Of a stretch of 32,394 nucleotides of DNA, positions 2,123 through 32,394 are shown one piece after another. Each line of letters starts with the position of its first letter. Position 1 is the stretch's first letter. The position numbers and the translations under genes are program-made. The notes beneath the pieces are model-generated. The model had not been told where the DNA came from. It saw only the letters and a program-made list of their open reading frames with translations, and did not search any database. Origin of the DNA: a virus; the IMG/VR virus record IMGVR_UViG_3300013306_000372, positions 1-32,394 of that record. One strand, written 5' to 3'.

Positions 2123-2554
2123 ATGAGTGTCACCATCCTTGGTCCGCTGTCAGAGGGAGGCGCAAAGCTTCCGTTCTATTCTTTCCAAATTCCGGCCGGG
2201 TTCCCGTCGCCGGCGGCCGATCACATCGAAAAGCACATCTCCCTGGACGAGCTGTTCGAGATCCGAGCCCCGCACGTTTATTTGGCAAAGATCGAGGGCG
2301 ACAGCATGGAAGGTGCCGGCATTTTTTGCGGGGACATGGTGGTGGTCAATCGCAGCCTGACCGCCGAGCACGGCGATATCGTGATCGCTGGCCTCAATGC
2401 CGAGCCGATCTGCAAGCGCCTGCACATACGCGATAACACCATCATCCTGATGTCTGCGAATACTAAGTATCCGCCGCGCTATGTGATGGAGGGCGACGAG
2501 CTGTTGATCTGGGGCGTGGTGACTTACAGCGTGCGCGACCATGCCAAGTCGTGA
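2123..2554 (+). CDS. umuD: UmuD/RulA-like S24 peptidase, polymerase V accessory subunit
   Basis: Starting at ATG 2123 gives 143 residues, the usual UmuD length; upstream in-frame sequence has no UmuD character. The RecA-stimulated self-cleavage site is Ala25-Gly26 in IPAGFPSPA. The catalytic serine is Ser61 (GDSMEGAGI) and the lysine is Lys98 (PICKRL). After cleavage, UmuD' joins UmuC to form an error-prone translesion polymerase. The gene overlaps umuC by 14 bp, so the two are translationally coupled. A perfect LexA box and a promoter lie just upstream. Similar operons (rulAB) are common on Pseudomonas plasmids and mobile elements; here the operon is prophage cargo at the end opposite the integrase. 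All residues expected for activity are present. Confidence 0.93.
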   Translation: MSVTILGPLSEGGAKLPFYSFQIPAGFPSPAADHIEKHISLDELFEIRAPHVYLAKIEGDSMEGAGIFCGDMVVVNRSLTAEHGDIVIAGLNAEPICKRLHIRDNTIILMSANTKYPPRYVMEGDELLIWGVVTYSVRDHAKS

Positions 2555-3821
2555 GCCGGTCTTTGCCCTGATTGACTGCAACAGCTTCTATGCCAGCTGC
2601 GAGCGCGTGTTCCGGCCTGACCTTGCCAAGACGCCAATCGTCGTTCTGAGCAACAACGACGGTTGCGTCATCGCGCGCAGCTACGACGCCAAACCTTTCG
2701 TGAAAATGGGCGCCCCGTACTTTCAGATCAAAGACGTGCTGCGCAAGCACGGTGTGCAGGTGTTCAGCAGCAACTATGCACTGTACGGCGACATGAGCGA
2801 ACGGGTCATGAGTATCATCGAATCCATGGTGCCCACCGTCGAGGTGTACAGCATCGACGAGGCCTTCGCTGACCTGACAGGCATACCCGGCGACCTGACC
2901 GCATTTGGGCGAACGATCCGCGCCGCCGTCTACAAAGGAACGGGCATTCCGGTAGGCGTAGGCATTGCTCCCACAAAAACCTTGGCCAAACTCGCCAACC
3001 ACACAGCGAAACGCTTGCAGGCGGAGACGGGCGGCGTCGTGGATATCTGCGACCCGGTCAAACGCGACTGGGTGCTGCGAAACACAGACGTAGGCGAAGT
3101 GTGGGGCGTCGGCCGTCGCATGAAAGCGCATCTCGAAACCATGCAAATCAAATCAGCGATGGATCTAGCGAAAGCCGACCCATGGACGCTCCGGCAGAAA
3201 TTCAGCGTGGTGATCGAGAAGACCGCGCGCGAGCTCACTGGAACGTCGTGCCTCGAGCTTACCGAGGCCGAACCGGCCAAGCAGGAGATCTGCAGCAGTC
3301 GCATGTTCGGCAAGCGTCTGACGACCATAGAGCCGATCAAAGAAGCGGTCGCCACCTACGTGCAGCGTGCGGCGGAAAAGCTGCGGGCGCAGAACTCGCT
3401 GTGCAAGAAACTGCGCGTCAGCATCCGCACCGGCATGTTCAGTCCGGAGGAAGCCAAGTACGCCAACGGTGCGCTGGTTGAACTACCCTACCCGACGAAT
3501 GACGTGAGGGTATTGACCAAGGCGGCGACCGAGGCGATTCACCGCCTATTCCGGCCTGGCTTCAAATACAGCAAGGCTGAAGTGCTGTTGATGGATCTGC
3601 GGCAGCCTGGGGAATTCACAGACGACCTTTTCGCCCAGTCGCAACCGCAAGCGGCTGAAAAAGTAATGAGTGTGCTAGATGAGATCAATCAACGATGGGG
3701 CCGGGGAACACTTCGCACCGGAGGGGTGCCAGCGACGCCTGATTGGGGGATGCGGAGGGAGATGATGAGTCAAAGCTTCACCACGAAACTTGATCAGCTA
3801 TGGGTTGTAAAATCCACCTGA
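2541..3821 (+). CDS. umuC: UmuC/RulB-like Y-family DNA polymerase V catalytic subunit
   Basis: This 426-residue protein has full UmuC length. The N-terminal palm carries the first metal ligand Asp12 (LIDCNSFYASCERVF) and the second pair Asp106-Glu107 (VYSIDEAFADLTG). The NNDGCVIARS motif (about 38-47) matches the fingers of UmuC proteins. The C-terminus contains the RWGRGTLR and DWGMRREMMS motifs of the UmuC C-terminal domain. It would copy past DNA lesions with UmuD' and RecA, giving SOS mutagenesis to the lysogen and possibly to the replicating phage. The gene is in one operon with umuD under LexA control. The next gene starts after a 71-bp gap holding a strong hairpin. No frameshift or missing catalytic residue is visible. 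Confidence 0.94.
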   Translation: MPSREPVFALIDCNSFYASCERVFRPDLAKTPIVVLSNNDGCVIARSYDAKPFVKMGAPYFQIKDVLRKHGVQVFSSNYALYGDMSERVMSIIESMVPTVEVYSIDEAFADLTGIPGDLTAFGRTIRAAVYKGTGIPVGVGIAPTKTLAKLANHTAKRLQAETGGVVDICDPVKRDWVLRNTDVGEVWGVGRRMKAHLETMQIKSAMDLAKADPWTLRQKFSVVIEKTARELTGTSCLELTEAEPAKQEICSSRMFGKRLTTIEPIKEAVATYVQRAAEKLRAQNSLCKKLRVSIRTGMFSPEEAKYANGALVELPYPTNDVRVLTKAATEAIHRLFRPGFKYSKAEVLLMDLRQPGEFTDDLFAQSQPQAAEKVMSVLDEINQRWGRGTLRTGGVPATPDWGMRREMMSQSFTTKLDQLWVVKST

Positions 3822-25786: not shown

Positions 25787-26087
25787 GCGCAGTACCCTGT
25801 TCGCAACCTCCCCGACGCGACCAAGCCCCTCCGTTCCAGTGCCCCCAGTGCACATCTCTCGACATACACACCGGAATGCCTGCAGCGCAGGCATATAAGC
25901 CGCAAACCCAACCTCAGCTGATACCGACAATCTTAGTGCGGCGGAACCCGCGTAGCGGCCGGTTGTCGGACAAATTCGCACCAGAAACTCTCAGCAGCGC
26001 CGGCCGATCCTGCCCGCGAGCGCTGCCCGTGAAATTTGCAGCTCACCTCGGCGCGCCCAATTGCCGCTTTGTGCCCGCTGAATGGCT

Positions 26088-26157
26088 GGCACGAAGTGCC
26101 GGGCATCCAGCATGGGTGCAGGGCACTGCCCTGCCGCTGGGCGGGCGCGTAGCCCGC
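26088..26157. repeat. Cluster of three perfect hairpins
   Basis: GGCAC-GAA-GTGCC (26088-26100), GCAGGGC-ACT-GCCCTGC (26118-26134) and GCGGGC-GCGTA-GCCCGC (26141-26157) follow each other within 70 bp. None is followed by a T-run. They could be primosome or initiator structures, terminators of convergent transcripts, or packaging signals. Confidence 0.6.
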
Positions 26158-26245
26158 GATCCTCATAAAAAGCTGAGCGCAGCGAACTGAGCCTTTGGGC
26201 GAAGGCATCATCTTGTACCCAACACACCGCCCCTGTGGACACCTC

Positions 26246-26315
26246 GAAAGCCTCTTTTTATACCCAACGGGGGTGCTGAGGGGGGTATAAAATTCCATTT
26301 AATTCAAAGGCTTTC
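26246..26315. repeat. Nested inverted repeat with AT-rich flank
   Basis: An outer pair GAAAGCCT (26246-26253) / AGGCTTTC (26308-26315) encloses an inner perfect 10-bp pair TTTTATACCC (26256-26265) / GGGTATAAAA (26283-26292). The 15-base stretch between the right inner and outer arms (26293-26307) is AT-rich and could be a DNA-unwinding element. Confidence 0.65.
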
Positions 26316-26489
26316 TGGTTGCCCCGCTTGCGCGCCGGCGGCGCGGCTAAATTGCGCTGTAACGGAGACGTACACATGGCGAATTGCCGCCGTGGCGATG
26401 CTAGGCGGAAGGTTGGGGGCTGAGATAGAGTGTTTTCTTGACTGCCAGACGTAGCCTGGCCTCGCAGGGGATGCGATCGCTTCGGGGGG

Positions 26490-27398
26490 TTAGGTGTCTT
26501 TCTTTACCTGGACGTTGCGCAGCAGGCGTGCCAGGGATTCGTCCACGCCACCAGGCCTACTATCGGGCTCCTGAGGAGCCCTACTGCGACCAGGAGAATT
26601 GCCCTGCTCTGGCATCTCACCTTGGCTGTGAGCCACCTTGCGTGCCTCACTACGCTCCCAGTTGGTACGTGACTGCTCGCGGCGCAGGGCTTCCAAGGAC
26701 GCCTTCTCCTGACGCGCCAGGCGAAGCCCGCTAATGTTACGGAGCTCCTTTTCACGCTTCTTCAGTGCTGCCTTTTTGGCCCGATACCAGAGGTACCGTA
26801 CACCGAGGTCAGCAAAGAACTTTTCAGTGAATCGCACCAGGACACGAGTTCGCACCAGGTTAAGCCCAGCTTCGTCCTTTTCCTCCAGACGGATTTTCTC
26901 GACACGCCGGTAAACATAGTCAGCCAGCTCCATGCTGTGCAGCAGACGATTGAAGGATGCAGCAGAAACGCCGCTATCCTCTGCGACACCGCACTGGGTG
27001 TTGAGAAAAAACTGCCCCCGCTCGACGTCGAGCCATCCCATAACGCCCGTGGCCAGATCCAGACGCAACAGCATCTGCTCTGCAACTTTGGCCAGCGCGT
27101 CGAATTTCTCGGACCGTGTACGGCGGCCACCGTGGATAGTGTCCAGATCGCGTAAGTACATACCGCGCAGGTCGCCGATTTGACTAAGACGCTTGAACGC
27201 CATCCGCAGTAGGGGGTTTTTAAGCTGCTGGCCAGTCAGCCGTCGCGGAGCGGAATACCTTGGTGTTCGAGCAGGCGCTCGTAGAGCCGCGTGGGGATCT
27301 TTCTTGTCGCGATGAACGACAACAGGCCGGCCTTTGTTAGGTCCGACCTTTCGGCTGCTTGCCGATCGCGACTGGATGTCCTTGTCCTGATGAGTCAC
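26490..27398 (-). CDS. RepA-like replication initiator (IncFII RepA pattern)
   Basis: This 302-residue, very basic protein starts at GTG 27398. Residues about 60-220 follow the IncFII RepA layout. A helical block (NPLLRMAFKRLSQIGDLRG) comes first, then a winged-helix-like segment NTQCGVAEDSGVSAASFNRL with LHSMELADYVYRR, then RTRVLVRFTEKFFADLGV and a long basic helix YRAKKAALKKREKEL. The C-terminus is a disordered charged tail. No P2 gpA rolling-circle nicking motif (paired tyrosines) is seen anywhere in the window. It is third in the cro operon, so it should be made on induction and start theta-type replication at a nearby origin. Family membership is judged by pattern only; it could be a distant RepA relative. 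Confidence 0.68.
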   Translation of the reverse strand: MTHQDKDIQSRSASSRKVGPNKGRPVVVHRDKKDPHAALRAPARTPRYSAPRRLTGQQLKNPLLRMAFKRLSQIGDLRGMYLRDLDTIHGGRRTRSEKFDALAKVAEQMLLRLDLATGVMGWLDVERGQFFLNTQCGVAEDSGVSAASFNRLLHSMELADYVYRRVEKIRLEEKDEAGLNLVRTRVLVRFTEKFFADLGVRYLWYRAKKAALKKREKELRNISGLRLARQEKASLEALRREQSRTNWERSEARKVAHSQGEMPEQGNSPGRSRAPQEPDSRPGGVDESLARLLRNVQVKKDT

Positions 27399-27403
27399 AG
27401 AGG

Positions 27404-28027
27404 CTAGTTCACCTGGGACAGGTGGGGCATTTGAGGCTGCTCAAGCAGAACATTCTCGGCGCGCGTGCGCAGTTCACTGCAACGAGCCTCGACCGAACGT
27501 AGGCGATCGACAAACTCAGGCAGCTTGTCCAGATCCTCGATGTCGATGCGCCCGTCCGCTAGGATCTCGCTGCCGAGAGCAACAGTATTTCCCAGTCGAG
27601 CCACTAGCTGGCCGAACGCCCCTACCGGGTTGCCATCGCCGTTCAGCTCACGCGCTCCAGTAAGACCATGACGATGAGCCAGCTCGTTGATGCAACAATC
27701 TTTGAAGTCACCTTCCAACGCACCTACCCATGACTCCTCGATCCAACTCGGCAGATCGACCTCACCACTGAGCCAGCGCCCGACGCGGCGTAGCCAGGCG
27801 CCTGATGCTCTAAGGAACGACGCGCTGTCGTTGCTCTGGGCAAGCTTCTCGAAGTCGGGCACGTCCTTAATGACAGCCTTGGCGGGGATCTGACGATGCA
27901 GGTTGCAACTCAGCGCCTGGGCGAAATCGTCCTGGCTCAAACCTGTGCGGGCAATCATCTCGGCGGCATGAGCGACGAGCACTTGATCGCGAGAAATGGA
28001 CAACTGTCCGTGTATGGACGTGGTCAA
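27404..28027 (-). CDS. Unassigned early protein between cro and repA
   Basis: This 207-residue protein begins at TTG 28027, whose TTGA overlaps the cro stop, so translation is probably coupled; no clear Shine-Dalgarno is seen. The N-terminal part (about 10-55) contains LVAHAAEMIARTGLSQDDFA, then QALSCNLH, which has a helix-turn-helix flavour. The rest is helical and acidic, ending in a likely coiled coil (LRSVEARCSELRTRAENVLL). I do not recognise the family. Position between Cro and the initiator suggests a replication partner, copy-number control or a CII-like regulator. No enzyme motif is visible. Confidence 0.55.
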   Translation of the reverse strand: MTTSIHGQLSISRDQVLVAHAAEMIARTGLSQDDFAQALSCNLHRQIPAKAVIKDVPDFEKLAQSNDSASFLRASGAWLRRVGRWLSGEVDLPSWIEESWVGALEGDFKDCCINELAHRHGLTGARELNGDGNPVGAFGQLVARLGNTVALGSEILADGRIDIEDLDKLPEFVDRLRSVEARCSELRTRAENVLLEQPQMPHLSQVN

Positions 28028-28284
28028 GGAAGTTCACCGCACTTAGGCTGCCCCAACGCTTTCCCATGGCTGGATTTAGCGCCATCGGAAGACCCCGCAT
28101 GATCCTGAGAAGGGAACGGGCGAGTTTCCTGAGCTGCACAAGCACCATCGTCACCAATTGTCACGGTGATGTTGCGATGAGTTCTTATAGCTTTCGCGAT
28201 AGACGCAGGTTTTACACCCAGCGCCCGCGCGACAGGAGCCTGACCCATCCGCTGGACTAGATCACTAAGGGACATCTTTTCCAT
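28024..28284 (-). CDS. cro: Lambda Cro-like repressor
   Basis: ATG 28284 has AGGTG six bases upstream and gives 86 residues; a GTG at 28293 is an alternative. The sequence SLSDLVQRMGQAPVARALGV, followed by KPASIAKAIRTHRNITVTI and ETRPFPS, aligns along the whole length of lambda Cro, including the helix-turn-helix and the C-terminal PFPS motif. About 20 extra residues follow. Cro would shut off repressor synthesis and favour lytic growth. It is the first gene of the minus-strand early operon with the 27404-28027 gene and repA, divergent from the repressor. Confidence 0.87.
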   Translation of the reverse strand: MEKMSLSDLVQRMGQAPVARALGVKPASIAKAIRTHRNITVTIGDDGACAAQETRPFPSQDHAGSSDGAKSSHGKALGQPKCGELP

Positions 28285-28315
28285 GTCATACACCTAAGAC
28301 TGATGAATGACCGAA

Positions 28316-28344
28316 AGATTAACCGCTAACATATTTATTATCAA
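28316..28344 (-). promoter_or_regulatory. Early promoter for the cro operon (PR-like)
   Basis: On the minus strand TTGATA (28344-28339) and TAATCT (28321-28316) are separated by 17 bp. The operator position at 28343-28357 touches the -35 and the one at 28319-28333 covers the -10 edge, so repressor bound there would block transcription. Confidence 0.72.
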
Positions 28345-28381
28345 TGCCTACGGCTAATCTTTAAGGTTAGCCAGCGGCTTA
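28319..28381. promoter_or_regulatory. Three-site operator (OR-like) between cro and cI
   Basis: A 15-bp motif TTAGCC-N3-GGCTAA is seen as TTAGCC-AGC-GGCTTA at 28367-28381 (one mismatch) and AATGCC-TAC-GGCTAA at 28343-28357. A poorer half-site, TTAACC-GCT-AACATA, is at 28319-28333. The starts are exactly 24 bp apart, like the lambda OR1-OR2-OR3 arrangement. The third site is supported mostly by spacing and one half. Confidence 0.7.
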
Positions 28382-28394
28382 TACTTCGACAATG
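28380..28394 (+). promoter_or_regulatory. PRM-like -10 giving a leaderless cI transcript
   Basis: TATACT (28380-28385) lies six bases before the ATG at 28392, so transcription should start at or within one base of the start codon. No Shine-Dalgarno is present. The -35 position is poor (ATCTTT at 28357-28362), as for lambda PRM, which is leaderless and needs CI activation. The operator at 28367-28381 overlaps this -10, giving negative autoregulation. Confidence 0.6.
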
Positions 28395-29111
28395 ACTAAA
28401 AAAAAGCCGATCGCCCCTGCCCTGTTCGCGGAATGCCAAGCAGCTCATGAGCTCTATCTTTCCAAGAAGAACGCTCTCAAGCTGAATCAACGGAAAATTG
28501 CCGATGCCGCAGGCATAACACCGGTTTCGGTGAACCATTATTTGAAGGGTATAAATGCGCTCAATGCCCGCTTTGCCTCGGTACTGGCAAAGCTGCTAAA
28601 CGAGCCGGTCGAGAGCTTCAGTCCACGCCTTGCTGCCGAGATCGAGGGCATGGCAGCTACAAGCAGTCACTCCAACATTTCCCCAATGCTGCAACCTCAC
28701 AGAGAGGCCCGAGAATACCCTTTGATTTCATGGGTTGCCGCCGGCGAGCAGATTGAATCTTCCGTCTGCTATCCGACCGGAATTGCAGACGATTGGCTGT
28801 CGTCTACGGAGAATGCAGGGCCACGTGGGTATTGGCTCAAGGTGAAGGGAAAGTCGATGACATCGGACACGCCGCCTAGCTTCCCGGAAGGCACTCCGAT
28901 ATTGATTCGCCCTGAAGGCTTTGACCTCATCAGCGGCAAGTTCTACATTGCCCGCCACACTGTCAGCGGCGAAACCACCTTCAAGCAATACAATCTTGAT
29001 GCTGGGGTGGGCTACCTGGTGCCACTCAATCCAGAGTACAAGGCAGTAGCTCTGGACGGTACTTGGGAAATTATCGGCCGTGCGATCGATGCGAAGATCA
29101 CCGGCATGTAA
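28392..29111 (+). CDS. cI: CI-like phage repressor, S24 self-cleaving
   Basis: This 239-residue protein has an N-terminal DNA-binding domain with a helix-turn-helix at about 32-58 (NQRKIADAAGITPVSVNHYL). The C-terminal LexA/CI domain has the cleavage site Ala117-Gly118 (ISWVAAGEQIES), catalytic Ser155 (KVKGKSMTS) and Lys198 (ETTFKQY). It should keep the prophage silent and self-cleave on RecA filaments during DNA damage. It is divergent from cro across a 107-bp operator region and probably translated from a leaderless mRNA. It ends 52 bp before the convergent unassigned operon. All residues required for SOS induction are present. Confidence 0.92.
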   Translation: MTKKKPIAPALFAECQAAHELYLSKKNALKLNQRKIADAAGITPVSVNHYLKGINALNARFASVLAKLLNEPVESFSPRLAAEIEGMAATSSHSNISPMLQPHREAREYPLISWVAAGEQIESSVCYPTGIADDWLSSTENAGPRGYWLKVKGKSMTSDTPPSFPEGTPILIRPEGFDLISGKFYIARHTVSGETTFKQYNLDAGVGYLVPLNPEYKAVALDGTWEIIGRAIDAKITGM

Positions 29112-29163
29112 CGTGGTTGAAACCAGCCGGCGTGCTTTGAAACATTCCGTCCAGCTTCGCAGC

Positions 29164-29457
29164 TCATCCTCTAGCCTTTCGTGGACATAGCTTGTCTGCA
29201 CGGCCTTGGGCTGATCCGGGCGGGGCACTGTGCACCACGATATGGCCTTGGCCAATCTTGAAGTTTTTCATCACAGCGATGCACACGTTCCACGCCTCTC
29301 TTGCAACAGCATCGCCGGCTTCGACCACATTGCCCTGGTCATCGATAATAGCTAGACGTGCAGGACGCCCATCGGCAGTGCTGAACTCGTAACCGCTGCT
29401 GACATTGGCACTGATACGGCCTAATTCCAACGTGCCCGTCTTCGGGATTCCGATCAT
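29164..29457 (-). CDS. Unassigned small protein, second gene of operator-controlled operon
   Basis: This 97-residue protein starts at ATG 29457, overlapping the upstream stop as ATGA with a GGGGGAAG Shine-Dalgarno. The N-terminal half reads as a beta-sandwich (LELGRISANVSSGYEFSTAD, then ARLAIIDDQGNVVEA), and the C-terminus is basic. I do not recognise it. It is convergent with cI. The operon lies between repressor and integrase, a typical location for lysogeny-linked accessory genes or superinfection-exclusion factors; its role is unknown. Confidence 0.6.
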   Translation of the reverse strand: MIGIPKTGTLELGRISANVSSGYEFSTADGRPARLAIIDDQGNVVEAGDAVAREAWNVCIAVMKNFKIGQGHIVVHSAPPGSAQGRADKLCPRKARG

Positions 29458-29963
29458 TGTCTTCCCCCTACTTCAACACCTACAGAGCACTTGTTCACGA
29501 TCAGAGCGATGGTGGCGGCGTGGAGATCACGGCGACTTTGGGCTGTGTGTATCGCGCTCCAATTTTCTTTTTCAATTGCTGTATCGAGTTCAGCGTTTGC
29601 ACTCCTATATCCCTCAATGCTTTGACTAAACAGTCGTTTCGCATTTAGCTCCAGGATGGAAATGGTTAGCTGCGCATCGGCCTCTGGCGGGATTCTCTGA
29701 TCGTTGCAAATAGCAAGCTCCTCGAGAAAGGCGGCAATTCTTTCGGCAACGTAATCAGTTTTTGGGATGGTCAGACTGTTAACTGAACTACCCAGTCTGA
29801 CCTGAATTGATACATCGTCTAGGCCCTGCTCAATGGCAACAATGGCCGTCGCGGAGCAGCGCCCGTCTTCTGCAAAAAAATGGTGCGAAAAAATGCCGTT
29901 CTGAGTGACCTGGTCTAATAACTGAGAGCGCGCATCCGGCGAAAGGCAAAGGGCGTACATCAT
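29454..29963 (-). CDS. Unassigned protein, first gene of operator-controlled operon
   Basis: ATG 29963 has GGAGG five bases upstream (ATG 29960 is equally possible); the frame extends to a TTG at 29975. The product is about 169 residues and acidic. A beta-rich N-terminal half includes DDVSIQVRLGSSVNSLTIPK. A helical C-terminal half includes ILELNAKRLFSQSIEGYRSA and a possible coiled coil. I see no known family, membrane helix or catalytic motif. The upstream promoter is overlaid by the phage operator motif, so expression should rise on induction or be tuned by repressor/Cro. Confidence 0.62.
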   Translation of the reverse strand: MMYALCLSPDARSQLLDQVTQNGIFSHHFFAEDGRCSATAIVAIEQGLDDVSIQVRLGSSVNSLTIPKTDYVAERIAAFLEELAICNDQRIPPEADAQLTISILELNAKRLFSQSIEGYRSANAELDTAIEKENWSAIHTAQSRRDLHAATIALIVNKCSVGVEVGGRQ

Positions 29964-30019
29964 GTAAACCTCCAAAGCGATCAGGGCACCGCAGCGCGAT
30001 ACCCTGAACTGATGGAAGT

Positions 30020-30048
30020 AAATTAGCCTCAGGCTAATTCTATGTCAA
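30020..30048 (-). promoter_or_regulatory. Sigma-70 promoter of the 29164-29963 operon
   Basis: On the minus strand a perfect -35 TTGACA (30048-30043) and TAATTT (30025-30020) are separated by 17 bp. The perfect 15-bp operator at 30023-30037 fills the spacer, a classic repressible arrangement. Confidence 0.75.
30023..30037. promoter_or_regulatory. Phage operator, perfect palindrome
   Basis: TTAGCC-TCA-GGCTAA is a perfect two-fold site of the same form as the operators at 28343-28381. It lies inside the promoter at 30020-30048. Confidence 0.75.
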
Positions 30049-30076
30049 ACACCTGCGGCATATTTTTTGATTTTTA

Positions 30077-30091
30077 TTAGCCGCTGGATAA
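30077..30091. promoter_or_regulatory. Second upstream phage operator
   Basis: TTAGCC-GCT-GGATAA differs from the perfect site by one base and lies 54 bp (about five helical turns) from it, directly after the DUF1654 stop codon. Cooperative binding by repressor is possible. Confidence 0.65.
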
Positions 30092-30346
30092 TCAGAAGGG
30101 ATGATGGTTGGTCCAGCTCAATTGCGCGACACCATCACCCAGAGGCTTCAAGCGCACGCTTTCCTCGTTATTCAATTGCTCAAGAAGTCGATCCCAATCA
30201 TCGGAGCGCTCGCCCGATAATCGCTGTATTAACGTTCGCCTCAGCACCTGGGCGGAGGCACTGTTGACCTGTCGATAGATACGGCAGGCAAGCTGGTCGA
30301 ATGGAGTGGACGGCTGCATTGGAAAAACGCGGTTTTGCTCAAGCAC
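30092..30346 (-). CDS. DUF1654 family protein, SOS-boxed
   Basis: This 84-residue protein starts at GTG 30346 with AGGA seven bases upstream; an internal ATG at 30319 lacks a ribosome site. TPFDQLACRIYRQVNSASAQ, followed by VLRRTLIQRL and DDWDRLLEQLNNEESVRL, matches DUF1654, a small family found in Pseudomonas and its prophages. The function is unknown. A LexA box (30365-30380) lies 19 bp upstream of the start, so it should be induced by DNA damage independently of CI. Confidence 0.82.
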   Translation of the reverse strand: MLEQNRVFPMQPSTPFDQLACRIYRQVNSASAQVLRRTLIQRLSGERSDDWDRLLEQLNNEESVRLKPLGDGVAQLSWTNHHPF

Positions 30347-30364
30347 AAAAGCATCCTGCTACTA

Positions 30365-30380
30365 CTGTATATTCAGACAG
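30365..30380. promoter_or_regulatory. LexA (SOS) box upstream of the DUF1654 gene
   Basis: CTGTATATTCAGACAG fits CTGT-N8-ACAG. On the minus strand a TATACT -10-like element (30383-30378) overlaps its edge, so LexA would block this promoter. Confidence 0.82.
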
Positions 30381-30413
30381 TATATAGGAAATATAACATT
30401 CCCAATATTTGGC

Positions 30414-32033
30414 CTAGCCCCAGTCCTCACTCGCCACCCAGTCGCCTGATTTCCTATGGATCCGAAGCAACCGGTGCTGTCCCGTGCGCGAGAATAGTTG
30501 CACATCGATGAATAGACCCTCTCGGTCGGTTGCGTCCACACCCCGCATGAAAATAACGATGCGACTGAATGTGTCCATAACCAACTGCCTGACACTATCT
30601 CTTGCTCCGTAATCTCCCGTCTCCACCTGGGCAGCCAGATCCGCCCATCGCTCAGCCTGGGCTGGTTGAGCGGCCCCTGCCGACATTGAACTCACTTCGT
30701 ATTCCAATGTTGAAACGCTTTGCTCAGCATCTCTAAGCTGTGATTCCAACTCCCTTGCCTTACGGACAAAGGCTAGAGGGGCGGCGCCACTCTCGTCTGC
30801 TAAAAGCGCATCAGTCACCTTGCCCAACTGACTCGTGATCTTCACAACAGCCGCCCTTGCATTCACAAGTTCACGATGGACAGCCTGACCGTCATCGCTT
30901 GGCTGCATCAGTCGCTGCAGGTTGAGCTGATCCGTGCAGAACTTGAGTAATGCTTGCTCAATTGGGACAACGCTGCAGCTGCCGCCGGCAGAGCAACCGC
31001 CGTTTTTGCTGTAAGAAGTGCAGTGCAACCTGCGATTGCCATCTGCAATGCTTCCATCAACACGCCTACGCTTCATTATGTTTTGCGCCACTAGCGCTGT
31101 GCCGCAGTAGCCACAGTAGGCCAATCCGACCCCGGTTATGATGCCTGGTATCTCCCCGGCTCCTCGACGACGCAACCGTTGACCCGCAAGGTGCTGCAGA
31201 TCATTCCATTCTTCATCTGACAGGATTCGCGGGTAGTACTCTTCGAGCTCGTAATCCTCGCCCTCCAGACTCAGTCTTTTGACACCGCGCAACGCAGGCA
31301 GCTTGATCGTCCGGTAAATCTGTAGTCCGGAGATTCCTCCCTCCGTCAGTTGAAATCCTTCTTCATGCATGATGTTTGCAGCACGGCCGGCACCGAGACC
31401 CAAACGGTAAAGCTCAAGAGCCCGCTTCACAGCAGCGACACGCTCTGGGATCAACTCCCACCCATCATTGGTCAAGCGTACCCACTGTGGGTCTTTACCG
31501 TTGCGGATCACGCCACGGAACGAACCCGACAACCACCCTTCACATTGACGACGGATTGCGGCTTTAACTCTCTTGCTCTTGGTGTCGGACTCTTCATGCG
31601 CCCTTATCATCACCAGGAGCGAATAAACCAAGTCCATAGGCTGAGCTTTCAAACCAGCCCTGTTGTACTCGCGGCCGTCGCTTGCGGTAACGACGGTAAT
31701 ACCTGCATTGATAATCTGGGCCAATTGAGCCTGAGCTTGAATAGGCTCTGCTCGACTCAAGCGGTCCAGGCCTTCCACCACCAGAACTGATCCACTAGCA
31801 ATCCGGCCGTCCTCGATCGCCCGAAGGAAAACCCCCAATGCCCCTTGTTTCACATGACGCTGGTGGTAGGCAGACAACCCTTCGTCTTTCAGTGTCAGCG
31901 TGGCGTCCAATGCCATGCCTCGTTCTGCGGCCCAGGACGCAGCGTAGGCAAGTTGGCGATCGGCACTGCTCCCTACTGCTTGGCGCGGATCCGAGAATCG
32001 CAGATAGCTATAAACTTGCCCGGTCATTTTCAT
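30414..32033 (-). CDS. int: Large serine recombinase, phage integrase
   Basis: This 539-residue protein has a resolvase/invertase catalytic domain at about 5-155 with nucleophile Ser14 (YSYLRFSDPRQ) and the VVEGLDRLSR motif at 85-94. The Recombinase domain is at about 185-290. A zinc ribbon has Cys307/Cys310 and Cys338/Cys347, and a coiled-coil-like helical stretch runs at about 385-450. It would cut attB in rimO and attP with 2-bp overhangs and exchange strands; excision needs a directionality factor I could not identify. The gene lies next to attR and reads toward the phage interior. P2-like phages normally use tyrosine integrases, so this module appears exchanged. Start 32033 has no strong Shine-Dalgarno; Met3 is an alternative. 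Confidence 0.95.
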   Translation of the reverse strand: MKMTGQVYSYLRFSDPRQAVGSSADRQLAYAASWAAERGMALDATLTLKDEGLSAYHQRHVKQGALGVFLRAIEDGRIASGSVLVVEGLDRLSRAEPIQAQAQLAQIINAGITVVTASDGREYNRAGLKAQPMDLVYSLLVMIRAHEESDTKSKRVKAAIRRQCEGWLSGSFRGVIRNGKDPQWVRLTNDGWELIPERVAAVKRALELYRLGLGAGRAANIMHEEGFQLTEGGISGLQIYRTIKLPALRGVKRLSLEGEDYELEEYYPRILSDEEWNDLQHLAGQRLRRRGAGEIPGIITGVGLAYCGYCGTALVAQNIMKRRRVDGSIADGNRRLHCTSYSKNGGCSAGGSCSVVPIEQALLKFCTDQLNLQRLMQPSDDGQAVHRELVNARAAVVKITSQLGKVTDALLADESGAAPLAFVRKARELESQLRDAEQSVSTLEYEVSSMSAGAAQPAQAERWADLAAQVETGDYGARDSVRQLVMDTFSRIVIFMRGVDATDREGLFIDVQLFSRTGQHRLLRIHRKSGDWVASEDWG

Positions 32034-32127
32034 GGTGAAACACCAGCATTGCTACCACATCCAGAGACGTCCTTTCGTCCTTCCAGTGCTTCAATAGCGG
32101 ACACTCCCTGACACTCCTTAAACATGA

Positions 32128-32142
32128 GAACAATACTTGTTC
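32128..32142. repeat. Inverted repeat upstream of int and rimO
   Basis: GAACAA-TAC-TTGTTC is a perfect 6-bp inverted repeat with a 3-bp centre, in the 199-bp region between the divergent int and rimO starts. It could be a regulator site for int. A short ACAATTGT palindrome lies at 32146-32153. Confidence 0.5.
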
Positions 32143-32155
32143 GCGACAATTGTTT

Positions 32156-32184
32156 TTGCGCATTTTTTGATCAACGCTTAGAAT
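32156..32184 (+). promoter_or_regulatory. Candidate phage-borne promoter driving rebuilt rimO
   Basis: TTGCGC (32156-32161) and TAGAAT (32179-32184) are separated by 17 bp and point at the rimO start 49 bp downstream. This DNA is on the phage side of attR, so it would replace the host promoter left at the other end. Confidence 0.55.
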
Positions 32185-32232
32185 CGCGCGCCACGAAATT
32201 CGGCCAGGGCGAACCCTGCAGGTAGTAAGTAT

Positions 32233-32394
32233 ATGAGTAATAATCCACGTGTAGGGTTTGTATCGCTAGGGTGCCCCAAAGCACTGGTCGACTCCGAGCG
32301 CATCCTTACCCAGCTGCGCATGGAAGGCTATGACGTTGTGTCCACTTACGAGGACGCCGATGTCGTGGTGGTCAACACCTGCGGCTTCATCGAC
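32233..32394 (+). CDS. rimO: rimO, ribosomal protein S12 methylthiotransferase with phage-supplied start (partial)
   Basis: The frame from ATG 32233 reads [20 protein letters not shown] and continues through [15 protein letters not shown] to the window end (54 codons). The CPK and NTCGF motifs contain cysteines of the N-terminal Fe-S (UPF0004) domain. RimO is a radical-SAM enzyme that adds a methylthio group to an aspartate of S12. The first 12 or so residues lie in phage DNA and replace MSTTPAPANPKVGFVS of the displaced start, with synonymous codons in the conserved part. The enzyme should therefore remain functional in the lysogen. The Shine-Dalgarno is weak (AGG eleven bases upstream). Confidence 0.93.
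32260..32281. other. attR: attR core within rimO
   Basis: Matches attL (107-128) at 18 of 22 positions; the differences are synonymous in the rimO frame. The host reading frame continues directly after it (A-L-V-D-S-E-R). Confidence 0.8.

Follow-up and report, generated by a model that had tools for sequence, protein, structure and literature searches.

Genomic context and gene products

The window, meaning the whole 32.4-kb virus record analysed here (32,394 nucleotides), is a P2-like prophage of the Pseudomonas group that carries a lambda-style switch. The cro and cI genes are divergent and separated by a 107-bp region, a gene for a CII-like regulator lies downstream of cro, and a second set of putative operators, a predicted promoter (PL) and two small genes are located past cI (Table 1). 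The P2-family head genes include both a capsid gene (Phage_cap_P2, E 4e-115) and a scaffold gene (Phage_GPO, E 9e-48), and the right end of the window presumably holds the start of a rimO gene. A Y-family, UmuC-like polymerase (IMS, IMS_C and DUF4113 domains) is encoded at 2541–3821 on the + strand, on the left side of the prophage.

The protein encoded by cro matches the complete PF09048 model (positions 1–59 of 59, E 6e-25), the solved chain of lambda Cro (2ecs, residues 2–61, E 9e-11) and Pfl 6 Cro (2pij, E 3e-7), in agreement with the sequence-only reading, which had aligned it with lambda Cro over its whole length; approximately 25 C-terminal residues extend beyond the lambda Cro match. 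The same reading had assigned the repressor to the CI/S24 type, and this is borne out by matches to PF00717 (E 2e-19) and HTH_3 (E 1e-6) and by homology to lambda repressor over its length (3bdn, E 5e-36, residues 2–233; 39% identity to lambda CI as a full-length homologue). The Ala-Gly cleavage site, the Ser/Lys pair and the TKKKP arm all align with those of lambda CI. Glutamate 34 of lambda CI is a sigma-contact residue; in the alignment this position is arginine in the window CI, and D38 is kept.

Table 1. Coordinates of switch-region features and the integrase gene in the window. Operators, promoters and the leader hairpin are predicted; ranks are those given by the held-out matrix.
Feature	Position	Strand	Description
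CII-like regulator	27404–28027	−	downstream of cro; phrog_4834 'CII-like transcriptional activator', E 4e-32
cro	28024–28284	−	86 aa; ATG at 28284; lambda-Cro family, PF09048
PR	28316–28344	−	TTGATA-N17-TAATCT; −35 at 28344–28339, −10 at 28321–28316; predicted +1 at ~28309
OR1	28319–28333		TTAACCGCTAACATA; degenerate in this clade; rank 7 of 32,380
OR2	28343–28357		AATGCCTACGGCTAA; centre −42 from cI ATG; rank 4
OR3	28367–28381		TTAGCCAGCGGCTTA; overlaps PRM −10 by 2 bp; rank 1
PRM −10	28380–28385	+	TATACT; six bases, then cI ATG at 28392
cI	28392–29111	+	239 aa; N-terminal arm TKKKP, HTH, S24 domain with A117-G118 and S155/K198
Second PL gene	29164–29457	−	97 aa; no family match
First PL gene	29454–29963	−	169 aa; N-terminal part conserved, C-terminal part exchanged
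PL leader hairpin	29964–30019	−	5′ arm pairs with SD of first PL gene
PL	30020–30048	−	TTGACA-N17-TAATTT; reads towards cI; predicted +1 at ~30013
OL1	30023–30037		perfect TTAGCC-N3-GGCTAA; in PL spacer, overlaps PL −10 by 3 bp; rank 2
OL2	30048–30062		weaker, CC-N3-GG core; 25 bp from OL1, adjoins PL −35; rank 17
OL3	30077–30091		1 mismatch; rank 3
Serine integrase	30414–32033

Operators and promoters between cro and cI

The three predicted operators of this region, OR1, OR2 and OR3, begin at successive steps of 24 and 24 bp, and their centres lie at −66, −42 and −18 relative to the cI ATG, compared with −66, −42 and −19 in lambda (J02459). The sequence-only reading had placed three operators at these positions with this spacing; the coordinates check, and relatives back them above chance. 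The motif proposed with them, TTAGCC-N3-GGCTAA, holds for OR3 with a single mismatch and is poorer at OR2 (three mismatches) and OR1 (more than three), with none at OL1 and one at OL3. Most of the right half-site of OR1 is missing in the window, so that OR3, not OR1, is nearest to the consensus. This half-site decays stepwise among relatives, reading GGCATA in L009, GACATA in L008 and AACATA in the window, and a perfect TTAGCCGGCGGCTAA is found at the OR1 position in L017. The description of this OR as complete stands for its three sites, their spacing and the placement of PR; OR1 itself is degenerate, and only the relatives make its 15-bp register clear. A reading of OR1 as an 11-bp palindrome (TTAACCGCTAA) was set aside because the 15-bp site is kept there in L009, L017 and L044. 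If affinity follows the match to consensus, the order in which OR is filled would differ from that of lambda.

On the − strand, the predicted PR with its 17-nt spacer was confirmed over the first two operators, its −10 overlapping OR1 by 3 bp and its −35 overlapping OR2 by 2 bp, and it is supported by the column consensus across 17 loci. The −10 noted six bases ahead of the cI ATG is likewise present, and this predicted PRM has a good −10 and a poor −35. A TANNNT hexamer exactly 6 nt before the ATG occurs in 15 of 17 loci of the window's clade and 22 of 28 overall, compared with at most 6 of 28 at any other offset from 0 to 15. No in-frame start was found upstream of the cI ATG, and the SD of cI is weak (−1.7 kcal/mol), that of the first PL gene being strong (−10.0). 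Taken from this sequence, the cI mRNA most likely starts at the AUG or within approximately 2 nt of it, which predicts a leaderless transcript; PMC3017554 names lambda cI as the first leaderless case to be described. The built-in promoter scan returned none of PR, PRM and PL, and all three rest on position, conservation and operator overlap.

Support from relatives

Relatives of CI were collected from viral contigs (42 loci), named genomes (7 loci) and 398 genomes of one genus (72 genomes at E ≤ 1e-30). Before the OR counts, near-copies (L002–L007, L015, L045, L046, L052 and L053) and the longer fetches L083–L089 were dropped, and partial matches that covered the S24 domain alone or began past model position 6 were skipped; the counts drew on 17 loci representing the CI clade of the window and on 11 more remote ones, lambda among them. 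The P2 capsid was found in 9 of 15 virus records tested, including all eight CI-clade records longer than 26 kb that were tested; it was not found in L020 and L033, both outside the clade. The mosaic of a lambda-style OR with a P2-type body that had been pointed out in this phage is thus upheld by the head genes, as a stable combination of the phage group and no one-off.

The idea that the spaced repeats are a chance pattern draws on the motif itself, since the printed 15-bp motif at up to three mismatches gave 11 matches in the whole window against 9.0 (sd 2.9) expected, which is not above chance. The motif by itself was accordingly rejected as evidence, and the above-chance support comes from relatives. 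Over the 17 loci, the arrangement −18, 24, 24 was the best of 12,000 (score 148; mean 40, sd 17.5). A held-out matrix, built from six loci that do not belong to the clade of the window and with the relatives' OR3 among its training sites, placed OR3, OL1, OL3 and OR2, in that order, in the first four of 32,380 positions and OR1 seventh. The 24/24 triple at 28319 was first of 32,332 (score 47.0), and the best triple not overlapping the region scored 0.5. The matrix ranks of the sites and of the triple refute a chance pattern at the sequence level, the arrangement score and the conservation of OL described below also speak against it, and we give it next to no credence. The loci are related and their counts are not independent, so these numbers are strong but are not probabilities.

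A second operator cluster and an inverted PL

The sequence-only reading had treated the switch as OR alone, and this does not hold: a second operator cluster, OL (30023–30091), absent from that reading, and its promoter PL are located 1.6–1.7 kb past the cI start. OL1 is the sole perfect operator in the window, and its register to the PL −10 is the same as that of OR1 to the PR −10. The core of the weaker OL2 is kept in relatives: both cores were matched in 14 of 16 loci, and the OL1–OL2 step in these is 22–25 bp. Among relatives the distance between the cI start and the cluster ranges from 1.6 to 5.1 kb; for L016, OL was not found within the stored flank. A DUF1654 gene (30092–30346, − strand) ends at OL3, between PL and the integrase gene.

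PL, its leader and its genes are on the − strand past the + strand cI, a direction opposite to that in lambda. In a search restricted to that strand, 21 further leaders likewise run against cI. The window yielded no N-like match. A crude terminator scan recognised no intrinsic terminator in 27900–30120, with shuffles giving 2.2 on average; with none recognised between PL and cro, a PL transcript might run on into cI antisense and cro sense. In L044, L010 and L015, a 212-aa open frame lies on the cI strand directly after cI, approximately 745–1385 bases past the cI start, the position occupied in lambda by the rex genes.

The first PL gene and its homologues in 15 other loci share a conserved N-terminal part, whereas their C-terminal parts are of at least two different kinds. 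The P. aeruginosa phages vB_Pae_U5, Haddon and LPPA36 encode a distant homologue of the N-terminal part, and it adjoins cI in U5 and LPPA36. The structure predicted for the first PL protein (pLDDT 77, pTM 0.47) gave matches with query TM-scores all below 0.4, and no function is therefore claimed.

A candidate leader RNA

Following the PL −10, the RNA is predicted to form a conserved hairpin in which an arm of the TCTCC type (TTCC in the window) is paired to the GGAGG SD of the first PL gene. Across 18 loci, the share of paired cells is 90.7%, compared with 86.1% in shuffles and 31–48% when slid, and 16 cells are altered on both sides against 6.0 in shuffles. Leader pairs with a two-sided change (5 vs 3.1) and pair types (18 vs 16.5) are both within reach of shuffles (40 and 94 of 500, respectively). 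The pair adjoining the SD is A-U in seven loci, G-C in six, G-U in two and broken in three. In all 18 loci a purine stands at the predicted PL start, 7 or 8 bases past the −10; this start directly follows the arm, so that mRNA from PL would lack the arm. Computed openness of the SD is 0.05 in read-through RNA against 0.27 from the PL start and is higher from the PL start in 18 of 18 loci, with both values near zero in L009 and L044 and arm-shuffled RNA at 0.16. On this modelling, the occluded PL leader is a lead and not a result.

An Rfam search of 26000–32394 at E ≤ 5 gave no match. A covariance model of the leader, run on the 398 genomes of one genus, matched 35 at E ≤ 0.01, five of which (G001, G184, G379, G369 and G154) hold this CI clade. 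Half of the other 30 matches were inspected: 14 (L096–L109) closely resemble one another and look like coding sequence, presumably for valine-tRNA ligase, and L095 looks unrelated. A wide distribution of the leader is thus unsupported, and what we know of it here comes from this phage group alone. No leader was obtained for L014, L020, L033, L047, L084, L088 and L089; the model gave no significant match in L014, L033, L020, L088 and L089 and matched L084 and L047 only at E ≥ 0.5. It also misses the leader of the distant homologue in vB_Pae_U5, where by eye the SD lies within a short hairpin as well.

Variation in spacing and recognition

Read by eye, the 24/24 spacing is kept in 10 of 17 loci, and strict conservation is rejected by the seven that deviate. 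In L014 and L055 the spacing is 24 then 33, and in L012, L013 and L056–L058 OR is widened and holds as many as four sites, at approximately −18, −43, −75 and −108. The cro start in L012 and L013 is also more distant from cI.

Operator half-sites are of two types, GGC and GGT. All 13 loci of the GGC type encode a CI recognition helix reading P[VA]SV[NS], and all four of the GGT type (L010, L014, L016 and L055) encode PAAVA, an agreement of helix with half-site in 17 of 17 loci as read by eye. The Cro helix shifts in parallel where it was read, from PASIA to PAA[IV]H in L010 and L014, and OL is of the GGT type, like OR, in L010, L015 and L046. The two distant places switch type together, which ties OR and OL to the same proteins. 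Binding of CI and Cro to the OR and OL operators is predicted. Placing the GGT type on the CI tree takes two changes, and a single origin of this type may still apply.

Proposed mechanism and alternatives

The gene families, the operator positions and their conservation, the helix co-variation and the agreement with lambda geometry make it very probable that this region is a lysis-lysogeny switch of the lambda CI/Cro type, carried by a P2-type prophage of the Pseudomonas group. From these we infer occupancy, filling order, activation, looping, cleavage and start sites. CI and Cro would bind one set of 15–17 bp operators at OR and, approximately 1.7 kb away past cI, at OL. PR would be shut by CI at OR1 and OR2, and PL by CI at OL1 and OL2. 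The centre of OR2 lies 42 bp ahead of the predicted PRM start, as it does in lambda, and CI bound there would activate PRM; CI or Cro at OR3 would shut this promoter. DNA damage would lead to RecA-stimulated cleavage of CI at A117-G118.

The same layout may work differently. With OR3 and OL1 strong and OR1 nearly dead, CI would mainly repress PL and its own promoter, leaving lysogeny poised or leaky. The mismatch counts, fewest at OL1, OR3 and OL3, and the visible steps of OR1 decay point this way; the likeness of OR3 to the consensus, however, comes partly from the −10 that it overlaps, the relatives' OR3 sites were among those that trained the matrix, and cooperativity at the 24-bp spacing could rescue OR1, and we consider such a switch unlikely, if well worth keeping in mind. 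Still less probable is that cI is made mainly from a leadered, PRE-like transcript driven by the CII-like regulator, with PRM minor. The CII-like gene downstream of cro would suit this route, whereas the weak SD at the cI AUG and the distance of 6 nt from −10 to AUG in 22 of 28 loci argue against it; both routes exist in lambda, and the two are not exclusive.

To the lambda-type switch may be added, tentatively and at rather long odds, an inverted OL/PL arm with two locks. Loss of CI from OL would let PL transcribe through the two small genes, cI antisense and cro sense, giving a push to lysis. In the lysogen, read-through RNA coming from the side of the integrase gene would carry the anti-SD arm and be poorly translated, and PL mRNA beginning just past the arm would be translated; this would be the T4 gene e device placed under operator control. 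For T4 gene e, PMC3014915 describes an SD occluded in longer upstream transcripts, with promoter-initiated transcripts lacking the 5′ part of the structure. Gene e serves lysis in a virulent phage and is transcribed from late promoters, whereas the promoter here is early, operator-controlled and predicted only.

Relation to known switches and significance

With lambda (J02459) the region shares homologous CI and Cro, three operators with a CC-N3-GG core, a three-site OL and a −10 six bases before the ATG. It differs in the outer operator bases, in the OR spacing (24/24 here, 24/23 in lambda), in the degenerate OR1 and in the direction of PL, which reads towards cI here and away from cI into N in lambda; no N homologue was identified here. 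The LESphi2-type phages of P. aeruginosa (L032–L043) have a CI N-terminal domain 45% identical to that of the window, the −10 six bases before the ATG and three ACC-N3-GGT-type sites, but a different CI C-terminal domain and, in the one record tested (L033), no P2 capsid. Rules relating the Cro helix to OR half-sites were reportedly set out by Hall, LeFevre and Cordes in 2005, and the co-variation of recognition helix and half-site seen here is of the same kind.

Prophage 06 of Pseudomonas fluorescens Pf-5 is presumably the source of 'Prophage Pfl 6 Cro' (2pij). It is described as lambdoid, with a length of 56 kb and a phiE125-like tail module (PMC2647930); it resembles the present phage as a Pseudomonas prophage with a protein of the lambda-Cro family, but its body is not P2-type. 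In the immB region of telomere phage PY54, a leaderless cI mRNA has been mapped by RACE; PY54 differs in that its Cro binds a single operator site and its prophage is a linear plasmid (PMC4488713). No paper in the literature searched was recognised as dealing with the operators of this phage group.

The switch is therefore known in kind, a lambda-type switch on a P2-type phage, and the inverted PL with its RNA leader makes it a variant; OL and PL, the inverted direction, the co-variation and the leader are additions to what had been read from the sequence before. On a P2-type body, the lambda distances of OR1 and OR2 to the cI AUG have been kept while operator letters and recognition helices changed together. 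The phage group thus offers a natural series of CI, Cro and operator sets for studying recognition rules and operator spacing (24/24, 24/33 and the wider OR). With its OL/PL arm the group also has an RNA leader open to testing and a convergent promoter not present in lambda, and the two-lock PL leader, if true, would be an RNA element not in Rfam.
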